From NCBI GenBank assembly GCA_029782025.1, contig JAKOVR010000184.1, forward strand, positions 1 to 64,000: a stretch of DNA of 64,000 bases, read 5' to 3'. Made by a program: the position numbers and the translations under genes. Every line of letters starts with the position of its first letter. The first letter of the stretch is position 1. Source of the DNA: Actinomycetes bacterium. GTDB taxonomy: Bacteria; Actinomycetota; Acidimicrobiia; Acidimicrobiales; Acidimicrobilacustridaceae. Positions 11,051-56,902 of this stretch are shown here, piece by piece. The notes below the pieces were generated by a model. It ran no database searches and was not told where the DNA came from. It saw only the letters and a list, made by a program, of their open reading frames with translations.

Positions 11051-13004
11051 CGCCGGGGGCCCGGTCGGGGTGGCCCGGATCCGCTCGGCGGTGCGCCACC
11101 GGTGGCGCCGGCTCCTGGCCCGGCGTCCGCTGCCCCCCACCACCGAGCTGTGCCCCCTTCCCGATCACCCGGACCCGATCGGCGAGTTCGCCCTCTTCGC
11201 CATCGTCGTCGCCTTCGCCGAGGCCGACATCATCGAAGCCACGGTCGCCAACGCGCTGGCCCAGGGGTGCGACGAGGTCTTCGTCATCGACAACTGCAGC
11301 CCCGACGACACCGCGGCCCGGGCCGAGGCCGCCGGCGCCCACCTCCTCCCCCCGCTCGAGATGACCGTCCACGACGAGGCGGTGCGCGTCCGCGCCATCA
11401 ACGACGCCATCGCCCGGGTCACCGCGTCCCGGGGGCACGCCACCACGTGGTGGCTGGTCATCGACGCCGACGAGTTCCCGCGCGGCCCGGGCGAGCAGAC
11501 CGTGCGCGACCTGCTCGGTTCCCTCGACCGCCGGTTCCGGACCGTGGGAAGCATCCACCTCAACCACTACCCCACGACCCGACCGGCGTACGTCCGGGGC
11601 ACGCACCCCGTCCGATGGCAACCGATGGCCGAGCGCGAGCTGGTCGGGCACTGCGCCCTCGGCCACCACAAGCACCCGCTCATCCGCCTCGACGCCGGTA
11701 CACCCCCCATCGAGGTCGGCAACGGCGCCCACCAACCAGCGCCCGGCGGTGCCAAGGTCGTCGAGCCGACCGTGGCGATCGTCACCCATCATGTCCGCTT
11801 CCGGGACGAGGCCGACACCCGGCACCGGATGGCGCTGATGCAGGGACGGCTCGCCAAGGAGCGCCCGCTCACCGAGCGGATCCGGGTCGTCGACGCGGTC
11901 TACGAGGGCCGGTGGGCCGACGTCCGGCTGCGCAAGACCAGGCTCGGCAACCGACCTGTGCGGCTGCGGCCCTGGGCCGAGCTCGTCCCCGGGGCCGACC
12001 CCGGCCTCGAACCGATCGACCCGGCCGCCGCCGGTTCCGGGGCCGACCGTCCGTTCGTCGCCGCCTCGGTCCTGCTCGAGTGGGACAACCCCCGCCGGTC
12101 CAACGCGCACCGGCTCCCGGAGATGCTGCGACGCCTGCACGGCGAACTGGCGTCGCGGCCGGTCGACGCCGCGCCGGTCGAGCTCCTCATCGGCCACAAC
12201 CACGATGTCGACCCCGCCGGCATCGAGCAGGCGTTGGCGGACGCGGACATCCGGGCCCTCGAGACCGTGCAGGTCCGCATCGTCGACGGTGGCACCCGCC
12301 ACTACTACGAGCTGAAGAACCTGCTGGCCGCCCGCAGCACCGGGGAGGTGCTGGCGTTCCTCGACAGCGACGTCTGGGTCGAGCCCGGCTGGCTCGCCAC
12401 TGTGCTGTCCGAAGCCACGCGTCGACCGGGCGCCGTCCTCGCCGGGCAGAGCTACGTCGGCCCCCTCGACACCCACTTCGCCCGGGTCACGGCAGCGGGC
12501 TGGTTCTTCCCGCCCGAGGCGCCGCCGACGCCGCCACTCGAGACCCACCAGTTCTGGGCCAACAATGTGGTCTTCCCCCGGGCGGTGTTCCGGTCGCACC
12601 ACTTCCCGCAGCAGCCCGACCGGTTCCGGGGCCAGTGCTCGCAGCTCGGCCGCGAACTGCGAGACGCCGGCATCCCCCTCGTGCGGGTGTCCGCGGCGCG
12701 GGTGCAGCACCCGTCGTTCGACGGCTGGACCGACCTCGTCCAGCGGGCCGCGCTCAACGGCGCCGACTTCAACCGGAGCTGGCGCCTGGCCGGGCGGGGG
12801 CCCTATGGGCGGCGGCTGGCCCGGTTCCTGTACCGCCAGGCCGGGTCGAGCGCACTGAAGGCGGTCCGTCACCGCCGGGCCTACGGCAACGGCGTGATCG
12901 ACACCGGCCTGGCGGTGGCCGTCGCGGTCGCGTACTGGGCCATCGCCGGCACGTCCAGCGTGATCGACCGCTTCAAGCCCGGGTACGCCCTGCGGTGGCT
13001 CTGA
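11040..13004 (+). CDS. Two-domain glycosyltransferase (GT2-like)
   Basis: A 654-residue protein with two apparent glycosyltransferase-A domains. The first (about residues 50-330) has a nucleotide-sugar fold beginning FALFAIVVAFAEAD, with the acidic DADEF motif at 142-146. The second (about 350-600) carries LAFLDSDVWVEPGW near residue 441, the DxD-type metal-binding motif of GT2 enzymes. A hydrophobic segment near the C-terminus (GLAVAVAVAYWAIAG) may anchor it in the membrane. It overlaps the sulfotransferase upstream by 11 bp and the acyltransferase downstream by 10 bp. The module probably builds and decorates an exported polysaccharide or glycolipid. Donor and acceptor sugars are unknown. 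The ATG at 11040 was chosen because it starts the continuous domain without an extra tail. Confidence 0.82.
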   Translation: MPSDAGGPVGVARIRSAVRHRWRRLLARRPLPPTTELCPLPDHPDPIGEFALFAIVVAFAEADIIEATVANALAQGCDEVFVIDNCSPDDTAARAEAAGAHLLPPLEMTVHDEAVRVRAINDAIARVTASRGHATTWWLVIDADEFPRGPGEQTVRDLLGSLDRRFRTVGSIHLNHYPTTRPAYVRGTHPVRWQPMAERELVGHCALGHHKHPLIRLDAGTPPIEVGNGAHQPAPGGAKVVEPTVAIVTHHVRFRDEADTRHRMALMQGRLAKERPLTERIRVVDAVYEGRWADVRLRKTRLGNRPVRLRPWAELVPGADPGLEPIDPAAAGSGADRPFVAASVLLEWDNPRRSNAHRLPEMLRRLHGELASRPVDAAPVELLIGHNHDVDPAGIEQALADADIRALETVQVRIVDGGTRHYYELKNLLAARSTGEVLAFLDSDVWVEPGWLATVLSEATRRPGAVLAGQSYVGPLDTHFARVTAAGWFFPPEAPPTPPLETHQFWANNVVFPRAVFRSHHFPQQPDRFRGQCSQLGRELRDAGIPLVRVSAARVQHPSFDGWTDLVQRAALNGADFNRSWRLAGRGPYGRRLARFLYRQAGSSALKAVRHRRAYGNGVIDTGLAVAVAVAYWAIAGTSSVIDRFKPGYALRWL

Positions 13005-52429: not shown

Positions 52430-52460
52430 CTCCCCCGCCAGGCCCAAAATAGCCCACGGA

Positions 52461-52483
52461 GGGGGGCTTGCCGCAAGGACCCC
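52461..52483 (+). promoter_or_regulatory. Inverted repeat resembling the rifamycin-associated element
   Basis: The core is CTTGC, C, GCAAG, flanked by GGGG on the left and CCCC on the right with two unmatched bases each side. It lies about 60 bp upstream of the rifamycin phosphotransferase gene. Actinobacterial rifamycin-inactivation genes are known to carry such an inverted repeat (RAE) at their promoters. I place it by position and by the CTTGC/GCAAG core as I recall it; the exact consensus needs to be compared. Confidence 0.65.
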
Positions 52484-52541
52484 GAGTGTGCTCTGAATGC
52501 TCGTTGCCGACCCCGGCCGGGGCGGCATCGGAGGCTGCGAG

Positions 52542-55049
52542 ATGCACACCGCCATGCCCGAAGGGTTCGTGTTGGGGTTCGGGGAGATCGATCGGACGAT
52601 GGTCCCCCTCGTCGGCGGGAAGGGCGCCAACCTGGGCGAGCTGACCCGGATCGACGGCGTCCGGGTGCCCGTCGGGTTCTGCGTCACGACCACCGCCTAC
52701 CGGCACGCCCTGGGCCGGGTGCCCGGCCTTGCCGACCACCACGCCATTGGCACGGAGAGCGCCGAGCTGCGGGCCGCCATCGAGGCGGCGCCGGTGCCCG
52801 ACGACGTGGCGGCGGCGATCACCGGGGCGGTGCACCGGCACGGCGACGAGATCGCCTGGGCCGTGCGGTCGAGCGCCACCGCCGAGGACCTCCCCACCGC
52901 CTCCTTCGCCGGCCAGCACGACTCCTTCCTCGGCGTCGTCGGGGCGGCCGCCGTGGTCGAGCACGTCCGCCGGTGCTGGGCGTCGCTGTTCACCGAGCGG
53001 GCCGTGGCCTACCGGCGGCGCAACGGCATCGACCACGGGTCGGTGCGCATGGCCGTCGTCGTCCAACCGATGGTGGCGCCCACCGCGTCGGGCGTGCTGT
53101 TCACCGCCGACCCGCTCACCTCGAACCGCACGGTGACCGCCATCGACGCCGTCGCCGGCCTGGGCGACGAGCTGGTGTCGGGCCGGGTCCGGCCCGACAC
53201 GTTCCGGGTGCGCGACGGCGAGGTCGTGGAGCGCTCGACCGCCGCCGACCGGCCGGTGCTCACCGACGCCCAGGCGGTGGCGCTGGCCGCCCTCGGCCGG
53301 CGGATCGAGGCCCACTTCGGGGCCCCCCAGGACATCGAGTGGTGCGTCGACGACGAGGGCGTCGCCATCGTGCAGAGCCGCCCGATCACCACCCTGTTCC
53401 CGCTCCCACCGGCCGACGACGGGCGGCGCCACGTCTACGTATCGGTGGCCCACGGGCAGATGATGACCGAGGCCATGAAGCCGCTCGGCCTGTCGTTCTG
53501 GCAGCTGACGGCGGCCCGGCCGATGCTCGACGCCGGTGGGCGCCTGTTCGTCGACGTCACCGACAACCTGGCCTCCGCGGCCGGCCGGGCCACCCTCCTC
53601 GGCCTCTTCGGGACGTCCGATCCCCTCATGCGGGATGCGCTCGAGACGGTCCTGGCCCGGCCCGGCTTCCTCCCCGATCCCAACGACGACGCGCCCCCCG
53701 GGCGTCCCGTCCGCGGCGCCGGGCCACCGGTCGAGATCGCCACCGACCCAACCCTCGTCACCGGGCTGATCGAAGCCAACGAGGCGTCGGTGGCGCAGCT
53801 GCGCCGGGCCATCGCCGGCGTGTCGGGTCCGGCCTTGTTCGACCTGATCCTGGACGACCTGGCCGAGCTGCGACGGCTGCTGTTCGATCCGGTCAGCCAC
53901 GAGGCGGTGATGGCCGGGATGCAGGCCACGTGGTGGCTGAACGACCACCTGGCGGAATGGCTGGGCGAGAAGAACGCGGCCGACCGGCTCACCCTCTCGG
54001 CTCCCGGCAACGTCACCTCCGAGATGGGGCTGGCCCTCCTCGACGTGGCCGACGCCATCCGCCCGCACCCCGAGGTCGTCGCCCTCCTCCGAGCCGCCGC
54101 CGACGACACCTTCCTCGACCGCCTCGCCGCCGTGCCCGGGGGGCCGGAGGCTCGCCAGGCCATCGAGGGCTACCTCGCCCGCTACGGGATGCGCTGCGTC
54201 GGCGAGATCGACATCACGCGGCCCCGGTGGCACGAGCACCCGCAGGCGCTCGTCCCGCTGCTCCTCGCCCACGTCGACAGCTTCGAACCCGGGGAGGCGG
54301 CCCGGCGCTTCGAGCGGGGCCGGCAGGAGGCCGAACGGGAGGAGCGCGACGTCCTCCAACGGCTGCGGGCCCAGCCCGACGGGGAGGCCCGGGCCGAGGA
54401 GACCAAGCGGATGATCGACCGCGTCCGCACCTTCATCGGGTACCGCGAGTACCCGAAGTACGGCATGGTCAGCCGCTACGCCGTCTACAAGGACGCGCTG
54501 CTGGCCGAGGCCGACCGGATGGTCGACGCCGGGGTGATCGACGACCGCGAGGACATCTTCTTCCTGACCTTCGCCGAGCTCCACGAGGTGGCCCGGACCG
54601 GCCTCGCCGACCCCGCCCTGGTCGCGGCGCGCCAGGCCGCCTTCCGGGCCTACGAGGCGCTCACGCCCCCTCGGGTCCTCACCTCCGACGGCGAGGCGCT
54701 CAACGGCGCCTACCGGCGGACCGACCTCCCGCCCGGCGCACTGGCGGGGCTGGCGGTGTCGGCCGGCACCGTCGAGGGCCGGGCTCGGGTCGTCCTCGAC
54801 ATGGCCGACGCCGACCTCGCCCCCGGTGACATCTTGGTCACCGCGGCCACCGATCCGAGCTGGTCGCCGCTGTTCGTCGCCGCCGCCGGCCTCGTCACCG
54901 AGGTGGGCGGCCTCATGACCCACGGCGCGGTCGTCGCCCGGGAGTACGGCCTGCCCGCCGTCGTAGGGGTCGACGGCGCCACCAGCCGGATCGCCGACGG
55001 GCAGCGGATCCGGATCGACGGCACCCACGGGTACGTCGAGCTACTTTGA
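52542..55049 (+). CDS. rph: Rifamycin-inactivating phosphotransferase
   Basis: An 835-residue enzyme of the rifamycin phosphotransferase family, which splits ATP into AMP, phosphate and phosphorylated rifamycin. It has an ATP-grasp domain at the start (MVPLVGGKGANLGELTRI, then VRSSATAEDLPTASFAGQHD). The rifamycin-binding domain in the middle opens with YVSVAHGQMMTEAMKPLGLS. The swivelling His domain at the end contains GGLMTHGAVVAREYGLPAVV with phosphate-carrying His794. PEP synthase and pyruvate phosphate dikinase share the first and last parts but not the middle, so Rph is the best reading. ATG 52542 has GGAGG 7 nt before it; an ATG at 52497 gives a longer tail. An RAE-like repeat lies upstream. 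Confidence 0.93.
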   Translation: MHTAMPEGFVLGFGEIDRTMVPLVGGKGANLGELTRIDGVRVPVGFCVTTTAYRHALGRVPGLADHHAIGTESAELRAAIEAAPVPDDVAAAITGAVHRHGDEIAWAVRSSATAEDLPTASFAGQHDSFLGVVGAAAVVEHVRRCWASLFTERAVAYRRRNGIDHGSVRMAVVVQPMVAPTASGVLFTADPLTSNRTVTAIDAVAGLGDELVSGRVRPDTFRVRDGEVVERSTAADRPVLTDAQAVALAALGRRIEAHFGAPQDIEWCVDDEGVAIVQSRPITTLFPLPPADDGRRHVYVSVAHGQMMTEAMKPLGLSFWQLTAARPMLDAGGRLFVDVTDNLASAAGRATLLGLFGTSDPLMRDALETVLARPGFLPDPNDDAPPGRPVRGAGPPVEIATDPTLVTGLIEANEASVAQLRRAIAGVSGPALFDLILDDLAELRRLLFDPVSHEAVMAGMQATWWLNDHLAEWLGEKNAADRLTLSAPGNVTSEMGLALLDVADAIRPHPEVVALLRAAADDTFLDRLAAVPGGPEARQAIEGYLARYGMRCVGEIDITRPRWHEHPQALVPLLLAHVDSFEPGEAARRFERGRQEAEREERDVLQRLRAQPDGEARAEETKRMIDRVRTFIGYREYPKYGMVSRYAVYKDALLAEADRMVDAGVIDDREDIFFLTFAELHEVARTGLADPALVAARQAAFRAYEALTPPRVLTSDGEALNGAYRRTDLPPGALAGLAVSAGTVEGRARVVLDMADADLAPGDILVTAATDPSWSPLFVAAAGLVTEVGGLMTHGAVVAREYGLPAVVGVDGATSRIADGQRIRIDGTHGYVELL

Positions 55050-55080: not shown

Positions 55081-55737
55081 GTGGACGATCCGATCGAGAC
55101 CCGGGCGGCGCGGCACGCCGCCCTCGGCGATCCGGCCCGCCTGGCCATCGTCGAAGCCCTGCTGGGCTGTGACCGGTCGCCGGCCGAGCTCGGCCACCGG
55201 GTCGGCCTCGCGTCGAACCTGTTGGCCCACCACCTCGACGTCCTCGAGCGGGTGGGCCTGATCGAGCGCTCCCGATCGAGCGGCGACGGGCGCCGCCGGT
55301 ACGTGCACCTCGATCCGGCCGCCCTCGGATCGCTGGCGCCGGCACCGGCCCGGCCGCGCCCCACCGGCCCCGCGCTGTTCGTGTGCACGGCCAACTCGGC
55401 CCGCTCCCAGCTGGCGGCGGCGATCTGGCGCCGGCGCACCGGCCAGCGGGCCGACTCCGCCGGCACCGATCCCGCGGCGCGTGTGCACCCGGGGGCCGTC
55501 GCCGCCGCCCGGCGGGCCGGGCTCGACCTCGGGGACGCCACCCCGCGCGCCCTGTCGCCGGCGCTGCTCCGCCGGTCCCTCGTCGTCACCGTGTGCGACC
55601 GCGCCCACGAAGCGCTGGGCGAGCGCGACGGCTGGCGCCACTGGTCGGTGCCCGACCCGGTGACCGTCGGCACCGCCGCCGCCTTCGACGCCACCGTGGC
55701 CGAGCTCGAGCGGCGGATCGCGGTGCTGGTCCCGTGA
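55081..55737 (+). CDS. ArsR regulator fused to a low-molecular-weight phosphatase/ArsC domain
   Basis: A 218-residue fusion. Residues 1-85 are an ArsR winged helix (RHAALGDPARLAIVEALLG, then LASNLLAHHLDVLERVGLI). After an Ala/Pro linker, residues 98-218 are a low-molecular-weight tyrosine-phosphatase-fold domain with the C102-x5-R108 loop (FVCTANSARSQLA) and a late VPDPV that supplies the general acid. This fold is shared by arsenate reductases. The N-terminal domain would sense arsenite, and the C-terminal one reduce arsenate or bind oxyanions. It starts the arsenic operon: GTG overlaps the aquaporin-like gene next. Whether the reductase domain is active is not shown. Confidence 0.88.
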   Translation: MDDPIETRAARHAALGDPARLAIVEALLGCDRSPAELGHRVGLASNLLAHHLDVLERVGLIERSRSSGDGRRRYVHLDPAALGSLAPAPARPRPTGPALFVCTANSARSQLAAAIWRRRTGQRADSAGTDPAARVHPGAVAAARRAGLDLGDATPRALSPALLRRSLVVTVCDRAHEALGERDGWRHWSVPDPVTVGTAAAFDATVAELERRIAVLVP

Positions 55738-56474
55738 CCACGCCCACCGACGACGAGCTCACCCGCGAGGTGGAGACCGGGGCCGGCGTCCTCCGCCTCG
55801 GCCTCGGCCGGCGCATGGCCGCCGAAGCCCTCGGCACCGGCCTGCTGGTGATGGCGGTGGTCGGTTCGGGGATCGCCGCCAGCCGCCTGTCCACCGGCGA
55901 CGTCGGGCTGCAGCTGCTCGAGAACGCCGCGGCCACGGCCGGCGCGCTGGTCGGGCTGATCCTCATGTTCGGGGCCGTCTCGGGCGCCCACTTCAACCCG
56001 GTCGTCACGGTCCTCGACCTGCTGCTCGGCACGATGCCGGCCCGCGACACCGGGGGCTACATCGCCGCCCAGGTCGCCGGCGGCTGCCTCGGCACGATGC
56101 TGGCCAACGTGCTCTTCGAGCTCCCCGTCGTATCCCTCGCCACCACCCGCCGCTCCTCCCCCGCCCTCTGGCTGTCCGAGGTGGTGGCCACCGTGGCGCT
56201 GCTCCTCGTCATCCAGGGCTGCGTCCGCAGCGGCCGGGCCAACGCCGTCCCCTTCGCCGTCGGCGCCTGGATCGCCGGGGCCTACTGGTTCACGTCGTCG
56301 ACCAGCTTCGCCAACCCGGCGGTGACGATCGCCCGCACGCTGTCCGACACCTTCGCCGGCATCGCCCCGGCCTCGGCGCCCCTGTTCGTCGTGATGCAGG
56401 TCGTGGGCCTGGGCATCGCCTTCGGCCTCGTCCGCCTCTTCTACCCCCACCGAGATCCGGAGACCCCCGCGTGA
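55734..56474 (+). CDS. MIP/aquaporin-family channel
   Basis: A 246-residue major intrinsic protein with about six membrane helices. The paired half-helix motifs are present as HFNPVVT and FANPAVT; the first has Val in place of the usual Ala of NPA. In arsenic operons such channels (AqpS/GlpF-like) allow arsenite to leave down its gradient, and replace an ArsB or Acr3 pump, which is absent here. GTG at 55734 overlaps the preceding stop (GTGA), and the gene itself overlaps the arsC start. Confidence 0.88.
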   Translation: MTTPTDDELTREVETGAGVLRLGLGRRMAAEALGTGLLVMAVVGSGIAASRLSTGDVGLQLLENAAATAGALVGLILMFGAVSGAHFNPVVTVLDLLLGTMPARDTGGYIAAQVAGGCLGTMLANVLFELPVVSLATTRRSSPALWLSEVVATVALLLVIQGCVRSGRANAVPFAVGAWIAGAYWFTSSTSFANPAVTIARTLSDTFAGIAPASAPLFVVMQVVGLGIAFGLVRLFYPHRDPETPA

Positions 56475-56902
56475 CCGACACCCACCCCGAGGTCCTCTTC
56501 GTCTGCGTCCACAACGCCGGCCGTTCCCAGATGGCCGCGGCGCTGCTGGCCCACCACGCCGGGGACGCCGTCGTGGTCCGCTCGGCCGGCTCCGCTCCCG
56601 CCGACGACATCAACCCGGCCGTCGTCGAGGCCATGGCCGAGATCGGCATCGACCTGCGGGCCGCCGGCGCCCACCCCAAGCGCCTCGACGAAGCCGCGGT
56701 GCGGGCGTCGGACGTGGTGATCACCATGGGCTGCGGGGACGCCTGCCCGTTCTTCCCCGGGAAGCGCTATGAGGACTGGCAGCTCGACGACCCCGCCGGC
56801 CTCGGCGCCGACGCCGTCCGCCCCATCCGCGACGAGATCGACCGCCGCGTCCGGGCGCTCGTGGCCGAGCTGCTGCCCACCGAACCCACCGAGCCCACCT
56901 AG
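56471..56902 (+). CDS. arsC: Arsenate reductase, low-molecular-weight phosphatase type
   Basis: A 143-residue arsenate reductase with the C12-x5-R18 loop (FVCVHNAGRSQMA) that binds arsenate. It also has ITMGCGDACPFFPGKRYEDW, a stretch typical of actinobacterial ArsC enzymes that use mycothiol and mycoredoxin rather than thioredoxin. It makes arsenite in the cytoplasm, for removal through the channel encoded before it. GTG overlaps the channel stop by 4 bp. Its TAG shares the four bases CTAG with the stop of the convergent lipoprotein gene. Confidence 0.94.
   Translation: MTDTHPEVLFVCVHNAGRSQMAAALLAHHAGDAVVVRSAGSAPADDINPAVVEAMAEIGIDLRAAGAHPKRLDEAAVRASDVVITMGCGDACPFFPGKRYEDWQLDDPAGLGADAVRPIRDEIDRRVRALVAELLPTEPTEPT

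Follow-up and report, generated by a model that had tools for sequence, protein, structure and literature searches.

The window, that is, the whole 64-kb stretch of DNA analyzed, carries a gene identified as encoding a rifamycin-inactivating phosphotransferase, rph (52542..55049, + strand), by profile matches, structure-sequence matches, and alignment. Upstream of rph on the same strand is a 19-bp palindrome, GGGGCTTGCCGCAAGGACC (52463..52481), which a comparison of sites across genomes identifies as a rifamycin-associated element (RAE). The mechanically called rph open reading frame begins farther upstream (52497-55049; 850 amino acids). The ATG at 52542, which gives a protein of 835 amino acids, is the likely start; it is favored over the ATG at 52497 because the predicted sense -10 hexamer (52493-52498) overlaps the latter and a Shine-Dalgarno-like GGAGG (52530..52534, + strand) lies 7 nt 5' of the former. 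The neighbors of rph are Amidohydro_2, TetR, and an ArsR-HTH/LMWPc open reading frame. These neighbor genes are not evidently common to related rph loci, and no conserved regulator gene was seen to adjoin rph in the six related loci compared. The region immediately after rph (55081-56899) resembles an arsenic cassette: one open reading frame fuses an ArsR-type HTH to a low-molecular-weight phosphatase/arsenate-reductase domain, and alongside it are another LMWPc protein and a transporter judged by eye to be MIP/aquaporin-like.

The three-part Rph layout that an earlier note proposed for the protein is borne out by domain-wise alignment to Listeria LmRph. Identity over aligned residues is 51% in the ATP-grasp domain (residues ~1-283), 50% in the RIF-binding domain (~296-723), and 71% in the phosphohistidine swivel domain (~736-835), all above the >42% identity to RPH-Lm that, with a full RIF-binding domain, defines Rph (rifampin phosphotransferase, clade A) in PMC4844700. 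The three-domain layout, the C-terminal catalytic His, and the catalytic R-E-..-K motif are common to the window protein and known Rph enzymes (Listeria RPH-Lm, Streptomyces RPH-Ss, WAC4747; NF041857), and each domain is at least about 50% identical to RPH-Lm. His794, correctly singled out in the note as the swivel-domain His, is encoded by CAC at 54921-54923 (+ strand; numbering from ATG 52542) and aligns to LmRph His825. In the same alignment, K22, R117, R666, E667, K670, and H825 of LmRph correspond to K27, R109, R635, E636, K639, and H794 of the window protein, so all six are kept. Mutation of Lys22, Arg117, Arg666, or Glu667 abolishes resistance in RPH-Lm (PMC4844700); K27, R109, R635, E636, and H794 are conserved in the window protein and in all 82 aligned proteins.

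It is highly improbable that the protein is instead a PEP synthase or a related small-molecule dikinase without action on rifamycins. ATP-grasp and swivel domains are common to such enzymes and the window protein, and the drug pocket has Gly at the Q336 position and Trp at the Y351 position. Yet the protein scores 1354 bits against NCBIfam RIF_Ptrans_rph (NF041857; cut-off 999) and 335 bits against TIGR01418 PEP_synth, far under the cut-off of 740. In a sequence search the best solved structures are those of Listeria LmRph (5hv1/5fbs, ~944 bits), whereas PEP synthase structures reach at most 273 bits, and their best-scoring stretch is N-terminal. The middle region, proposed earlier as the place where the two families would part, sides with Rph when aligned: residues 228-835 match solved Rph end to end in one stretch (737 bits), and the RIF-binding domain is alignable throughout. 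The catalytic His lies near the C-terminus, as opposed to the mid-protein position of PEP synthase, and the gene is linked to an RAE. The pocket substitutions are also found among homologues (Trp at Y351 in 79/82, Gly at Q336 in 10/82), and Tyr351Phe has little effect in LmRph (PMC4844700). Judged from its sequence, the gene product is a rifampin phosphotransferase and not a PEP synthase.

In contrast to known Rph enzymes, the window protein, like that of locus L083, lacks a 23-residue loop of the ATP-grasp domain, and it has Phe at the LmRph L387 position in addition to the Gly at Q336. The T136 position is occupied by Ser, as in 15/82 rows of the alignment. The missing loop (23 columns, K..A...P.GGT.E) would follow residue 235; the nucleotide-binding residues are retained. 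It is wholly or nearly gone in L083, L003, L013, L022, and L081 as well, a distribution for which the protein tree needs four changes. About four independent in-frame losses of this loop (window ~53246), which carries a near-invariant Lys and a GGT motif, thus appear to have taken place. Since the window protein and its loop-less relatives retain the catalytic residues, the enzyme can probably do without the loop. An AlphaFold model of the protein has a mean pLDDT of 65, which is low confidence.

The 23-bp inverted repeat noted earlier about 60 bp upstream of the gene, GGGGGGCTTGC-C-GCAAGGACCCC, is present at 52461-52483 with 9 of 11 pairs, and its end lies 58 bp (about 58-60) before the rph ATG at 52542. 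Viewed simply as an inverted repeat, it does not stand out: 51 23-mers in the 64-kb window have at least 9 of 11 pairs, and a generic repeat finder run on the window does not include it among its listed repeats. The RAE core within it, CTTGCNGCAAG (52467-52477, + strand, by pattern search), starts 75 bp before the gene and has one match in the whole 4,626,685-base genome, at the window RAE, as against three for a reversed control pattern. The repeat is therefore significant because of its identity, that is, its unique core and the rph-upstream sites elsewhere, and not because of its quality as a repeat. Against an empirical consensus that was built from genome sites and stands in for the published one, the window RAE has 0 mismatches to GGGNCTTGCNGCAAGNNCC and is one base off (A for C) from the stricter GGGNCTTGCNGCAAGNCCC. 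The A, in the right arm GCAAGGACCCC, replaces a C found in 91% of modules, and the same variant occurs in L012, L083, L041, and the Dormibacterota locus L038.

Comparison with RAEs before Rox, HelR, Arr, Rgt, and Rph genes in other genomes upholds the suggestion that the repeat is RAE-like; the core CTTGCNGCAAG and the site before a resistance gene are common to the actinobacterial rox, helR, arr, rgt, and rph elements and the window. Among 80 rph loci taken from named genomes, more than half have an RAE core (at most one mismatch) within 300 bp upstream (48 rows, one locus appearing twice). A gene-independent search for the exact 19-mer GGGNCTTGCNGCAAGNCCC in two genome sets, with a control pattern, found matches in 23/296 genomes of a phylum sample (control 1) and in 50/81 genomes of a family resembling Mycobacteriaceae by gene content (control 0). 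The gene downstream belongs to a rifamycin-resistance class in 50/50 loci returned. Classed by references drawn from the same locus set, these are HelR in 22 cases (five at only 34-37% identity to the reference), Rox in 13, Rox-like FAD monooxygenase in 7 (likely rather than proven assignments, since two Rox-like types score under the rif_monoox cut-off), Arr in 4, Rph in 3, and Rgt in 1. When the class references were checked with NCBIfam, the HelR, Rox, and Arr examples scored over the cut-off and the Rgt and Rph examples below it, the Rph example being truncated where its locus stops. That the palindrome arose by chance in GC-rich DNA, a reading for which the 51 comparable 23-mers of the window might speak, is scarcely credible given a single core match in 4.63 Mb before the correct gene at the correct distance and the retention, in L012 and L083, of the same variant together with the mirror antisense hexamer described below. 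By these sequence comparisons, the window repeat is a genuine RAE.

The 19-bp RAE forms the center of a rigidly spaced module of ~75 bp, and an ungapped alignment of all RAE modules spans about -38 to +40 relative to it. The outer G and C runs of the palindrome are 98-100% conserved. At a distance d=21-26 from the RAE center, a -10-like hexamer is present on each strand in 97% of 101 modules, a set whose rph members were chosen by their RAE core and whose percentages are not independent counts, as the modules are related by descent; they nevertheless span five gene classes and many families, and nearby positions vary. Among about 100 distinct modules, the sense hexamer is C91 A96. A98 A88 T98 (%), or CAnAAT, and the antisense hexamer is T96 A97.. 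T81 T97 (%), or TAnnnT. When all values of d are scanned, the pattern xAnnnT peaks at d=21 on both strands, with 97%, and no other distance exceeds 49%. A TTGCNG within the RAE lies 19 bp from each hexamer; these two -35-like hexamers overlap. The sense hexamer never has T at its first base, so that, as predicted from conservation, a weak sense -10 and a better antisense -10 both appear to be conserved.

In the window, the predicted sense -35-like hexamer is TTGCCG (52468..52473, + strand), followed by a 19-bp spacer (52474-52492) and the -10-like CTGAAT (52493..52498, + strand), at d=+21..+26 from the RAE center at 52472. On the opposite strand, the predicted -35-like TTGCGG (52471..52476, - strand) overlaps the sense one within the RAE, and the -10-like TATTTT (52446..52451, - strand) fits TAnnnT at the exact mirror of the sense position. 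An upstream block, CTCCCCCGCCA (52430..52440, + strand; consensus CTCCyTGCCA), is common to other RAE modules. The window module is diverged: its RAE ends in ...GCAAGGACC instead of ...GCAAG[AG]CCC, and unlike the typical module it combines the A in the right arm with the sense hexamer CTGAAT, which has T at a usually invariant A and is weaker than CAnAAT. Scored by its flanks only, with a matrix from non-rph sites, it has a modest z of 3.9 and ranks 20 of 127,820 positions; a flank-only match near window position 11640 scores above the RAE and was taken as chance after inspection by eye. The antisense hexamers of the diverged variants are TATTTT (window), TACATT (L012), TACCTT (L041), TACGGT (L083), and TACCGT (L038), in which just the T, A, and T of TAnnnT survive.

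Several other readings of the promoter region were considered. An upstream TATAGC was considered as a -10 hexamer, either for the sense strand or, with a 17-bp spacer, for the antisense strand; this was abandoned because what the diverged modules retain is T(-17)A(-16) and A(-21), which correspond to TAnnnT at a 19-bp spacer and not to TATA. A role for the antisense hexamer in driving a divergent gene was rejected too, as the hexamer is kept in 33/33 modules that have no divergent upstream gene by a simple codon-bias call. A generic sigma-70 scan with 16-18 bp spacing found no promoter, as expected given the 19-bp spacer, and an Rfam search at the rph promoter found no RNA family. The RAE overlaps the -35 of helD promoter 2 (PMC10719064), in agreement with the sense half of the module described here; the predicted -35 position in the window fits the overlap of RAE and sense -35 in other actinobacteria. 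The literature searched describes sense promoters and an unknown factor, and no mention of the antisense half was found there. This predicted mirror-image promoter architecture is the finding that merits a specialist's time.

The locus is very probably a chromosomal rifamycin-resistance gene in which Rph stands behind an RAE promoter, the identities of enzyme and element being read from sequence. Rifamycin-inducible Rph is the best reading, with the induction, the transcription start, and the reader of the RAE being parts that we infer. The enzyme would take the beta-phosphate of ATP on the swivel-domain His794 and pass it to the C21 hydroxyl of rifamycin, and the phosphorylated drug would no longer block RNA polymerase (RNAP). 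The promoter would be quiet without drug and rise with rifamycin, which would boost sense transcription from near 52505; the RAE would cover the -35 region of this promoter, with its center ~33 bp before the predicted start. In M. abscessus, the RAE is needed for rifampicin induction of helD (PMC10719064). How actinobacteria, including mycobacteria, sense rifamycin at the RAE was stated to be unknown in 2026 (PMC12802891). The anatomy we prefer for the switch is two back-to-back promoters that have the RAE in common, the better -10 being the one that points away from the gene; with polymerase or a dimeric protein bound at the RAE, the weak sense promoter would stay closed until the drug tips the balance.

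There is about an even chance that the switch is a transcription factor: a dimeric rifamycin-binding protein on the RAE, most likely a repressor over the -35 that leaves with the drug. The 19-bp palindrome with its nearly invariant outer runs is consistent with such a protein, and an RAE center at about -33 suggests repressor-like rather than activator- or MerR-like geometry. MerR-type activation was itself rejected, the RAE center being on the -35 and not in the spacer. A factor of this kind is assumed in the literature (PMC12802891, PMC10719064). However, no conserved linked regulator gene was seen in the six related loci, and a factor alone does not explain a mirror antisense hexamer without a divergent gene.

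It is less likely, though a serious possibility, that the polymerase is its own sensor and the RAE supplies the -35 region to both members of a divergent promoter pair. Polymerase would then be captured by the antisense promoter, the stronger of the two, and the sense promoter occluded; rifamycin-bound polymerase would upset the balance. The mirror -10 hexamers on both strands, the antisense TAnnnT (96%) opposite a sense hexamer that never begins with T, and the persistence of the antisense hexamer in all 33 modules lacking a divergent upstream gene point in this direction, as does the lack of a conserved regulator gene beside rph. The rph-RAE unit also occurs in isolated lineages, with rph in 0/36 family members, which fits a unit with which nothing else travels. 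There is a precedent in the convergent helD/pps promoters of B. subtilis, where helD and pps, the second of which modifies rifampicin, stay repressed by a stronger antisense promoter until the drug arrives (PMC12802891). Against this, the palindrome is conserved over 19 bp, a length that exceeds the needs of two -35 hexamers and hints at a dimer recognizing a specific sequence; and in a divergent, overlapping pair, a rifamycin-arrested antisense polymerase should block the sense promoter unless it is quickly removed. Factor-based and RNAP-based sensing can be combined.

Returning to the preferred anatomy, we propose tentatively, and at somewhat unfavorable odds, that mirror, back-to-back promoters share the RAE as their -35 core and that antisense transcription or polymerase binding is part of sensing. 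This proposal covers the five resistance-gene classes in actinobacteria and the variant form in the window and in Dormibacterota, and the RAE module would be the divergent counterpart of the convergent alarm of Firmicutes. Paired sense and antisense promoters before rifamycin-resistance genes, a 19-bp antisense spacer, and a weaker sense promoter are features of the B. subtilis helD/pps alarm (PMC12802891) and are predicted for the RAE module. Whereas the B. subtilis promoters are convergent and face each other, the predicted RAE pair is divergent and overlapping, back to back with a palindrome at its center. The back-to-back pair, if true, makes the question of rifamycin sensing testable, and the conserved mirror antisense hexamer offers a concrete handle for separating an RNAP-based sensor from a transcription factor.

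The genetic background gives the enzyme a plausible role. The rifampicin region of RpoB (G000:C141 of the window's own genome, L137) is of the sensitive type at the classic resistance positions; it departs from that type in a Val at a position we take to be N518 in E. coli numbering (N518V). Arr was not found in the window's genome; no protein in the genome scores over the HelR cut-off (the top match, a HelD-like protein, has 263 bits) or over that for rifampin monooxygenase (Rox). With a sensitive-type RpoB and no other resistance gene over cut-off, an inactivating enzyme would therefore be useful to the cell. The host is plausibly an environmental actinobacterium.

The window locus adds to the known RAE-linked rph loci and is not a new kind. 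With it, rifamycin resistance that is linked to an RAE and probably inducible is seen in a lineage where such resistance is rare, and no regulator gene accompanies gene and switch. Rph is absent from the 36 other genomes of the family and in a sample of the order is found only in G041 (L083) and G051. The protein tree pairs the window with L083 (98 SH-aLRT), with some doubt owing to long branches. Such a scattered distribution points to horizontal acquisition or to repeated loss. Among 395 genomes of the window's class, which the MAG names at similar loci suggest is probably Acidimicrobiia, an RAE 18-mer with full core occurs only in the window and in L199, where it lies before a Rox-like gene.

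Two minor observations concern other RAE loci. Variant RAE modules that are very similar over ~140 bp before rph occur in L038 and L054 (Dormibacterota MAGs) and in L041 (Acidimicrobiaceae MAG), and their presence in two phyla suggests exchange of gene and promoter together, or mis-binning. In addition, RAE-linked FAD monooxygenases of a PRK06834-like type and a third type (L140, L154, L155, L157, L159, L161, and L156) score under the rifampin monooxygenase cut-off where tested and may be additional rifamycin-inactivating enzymes.
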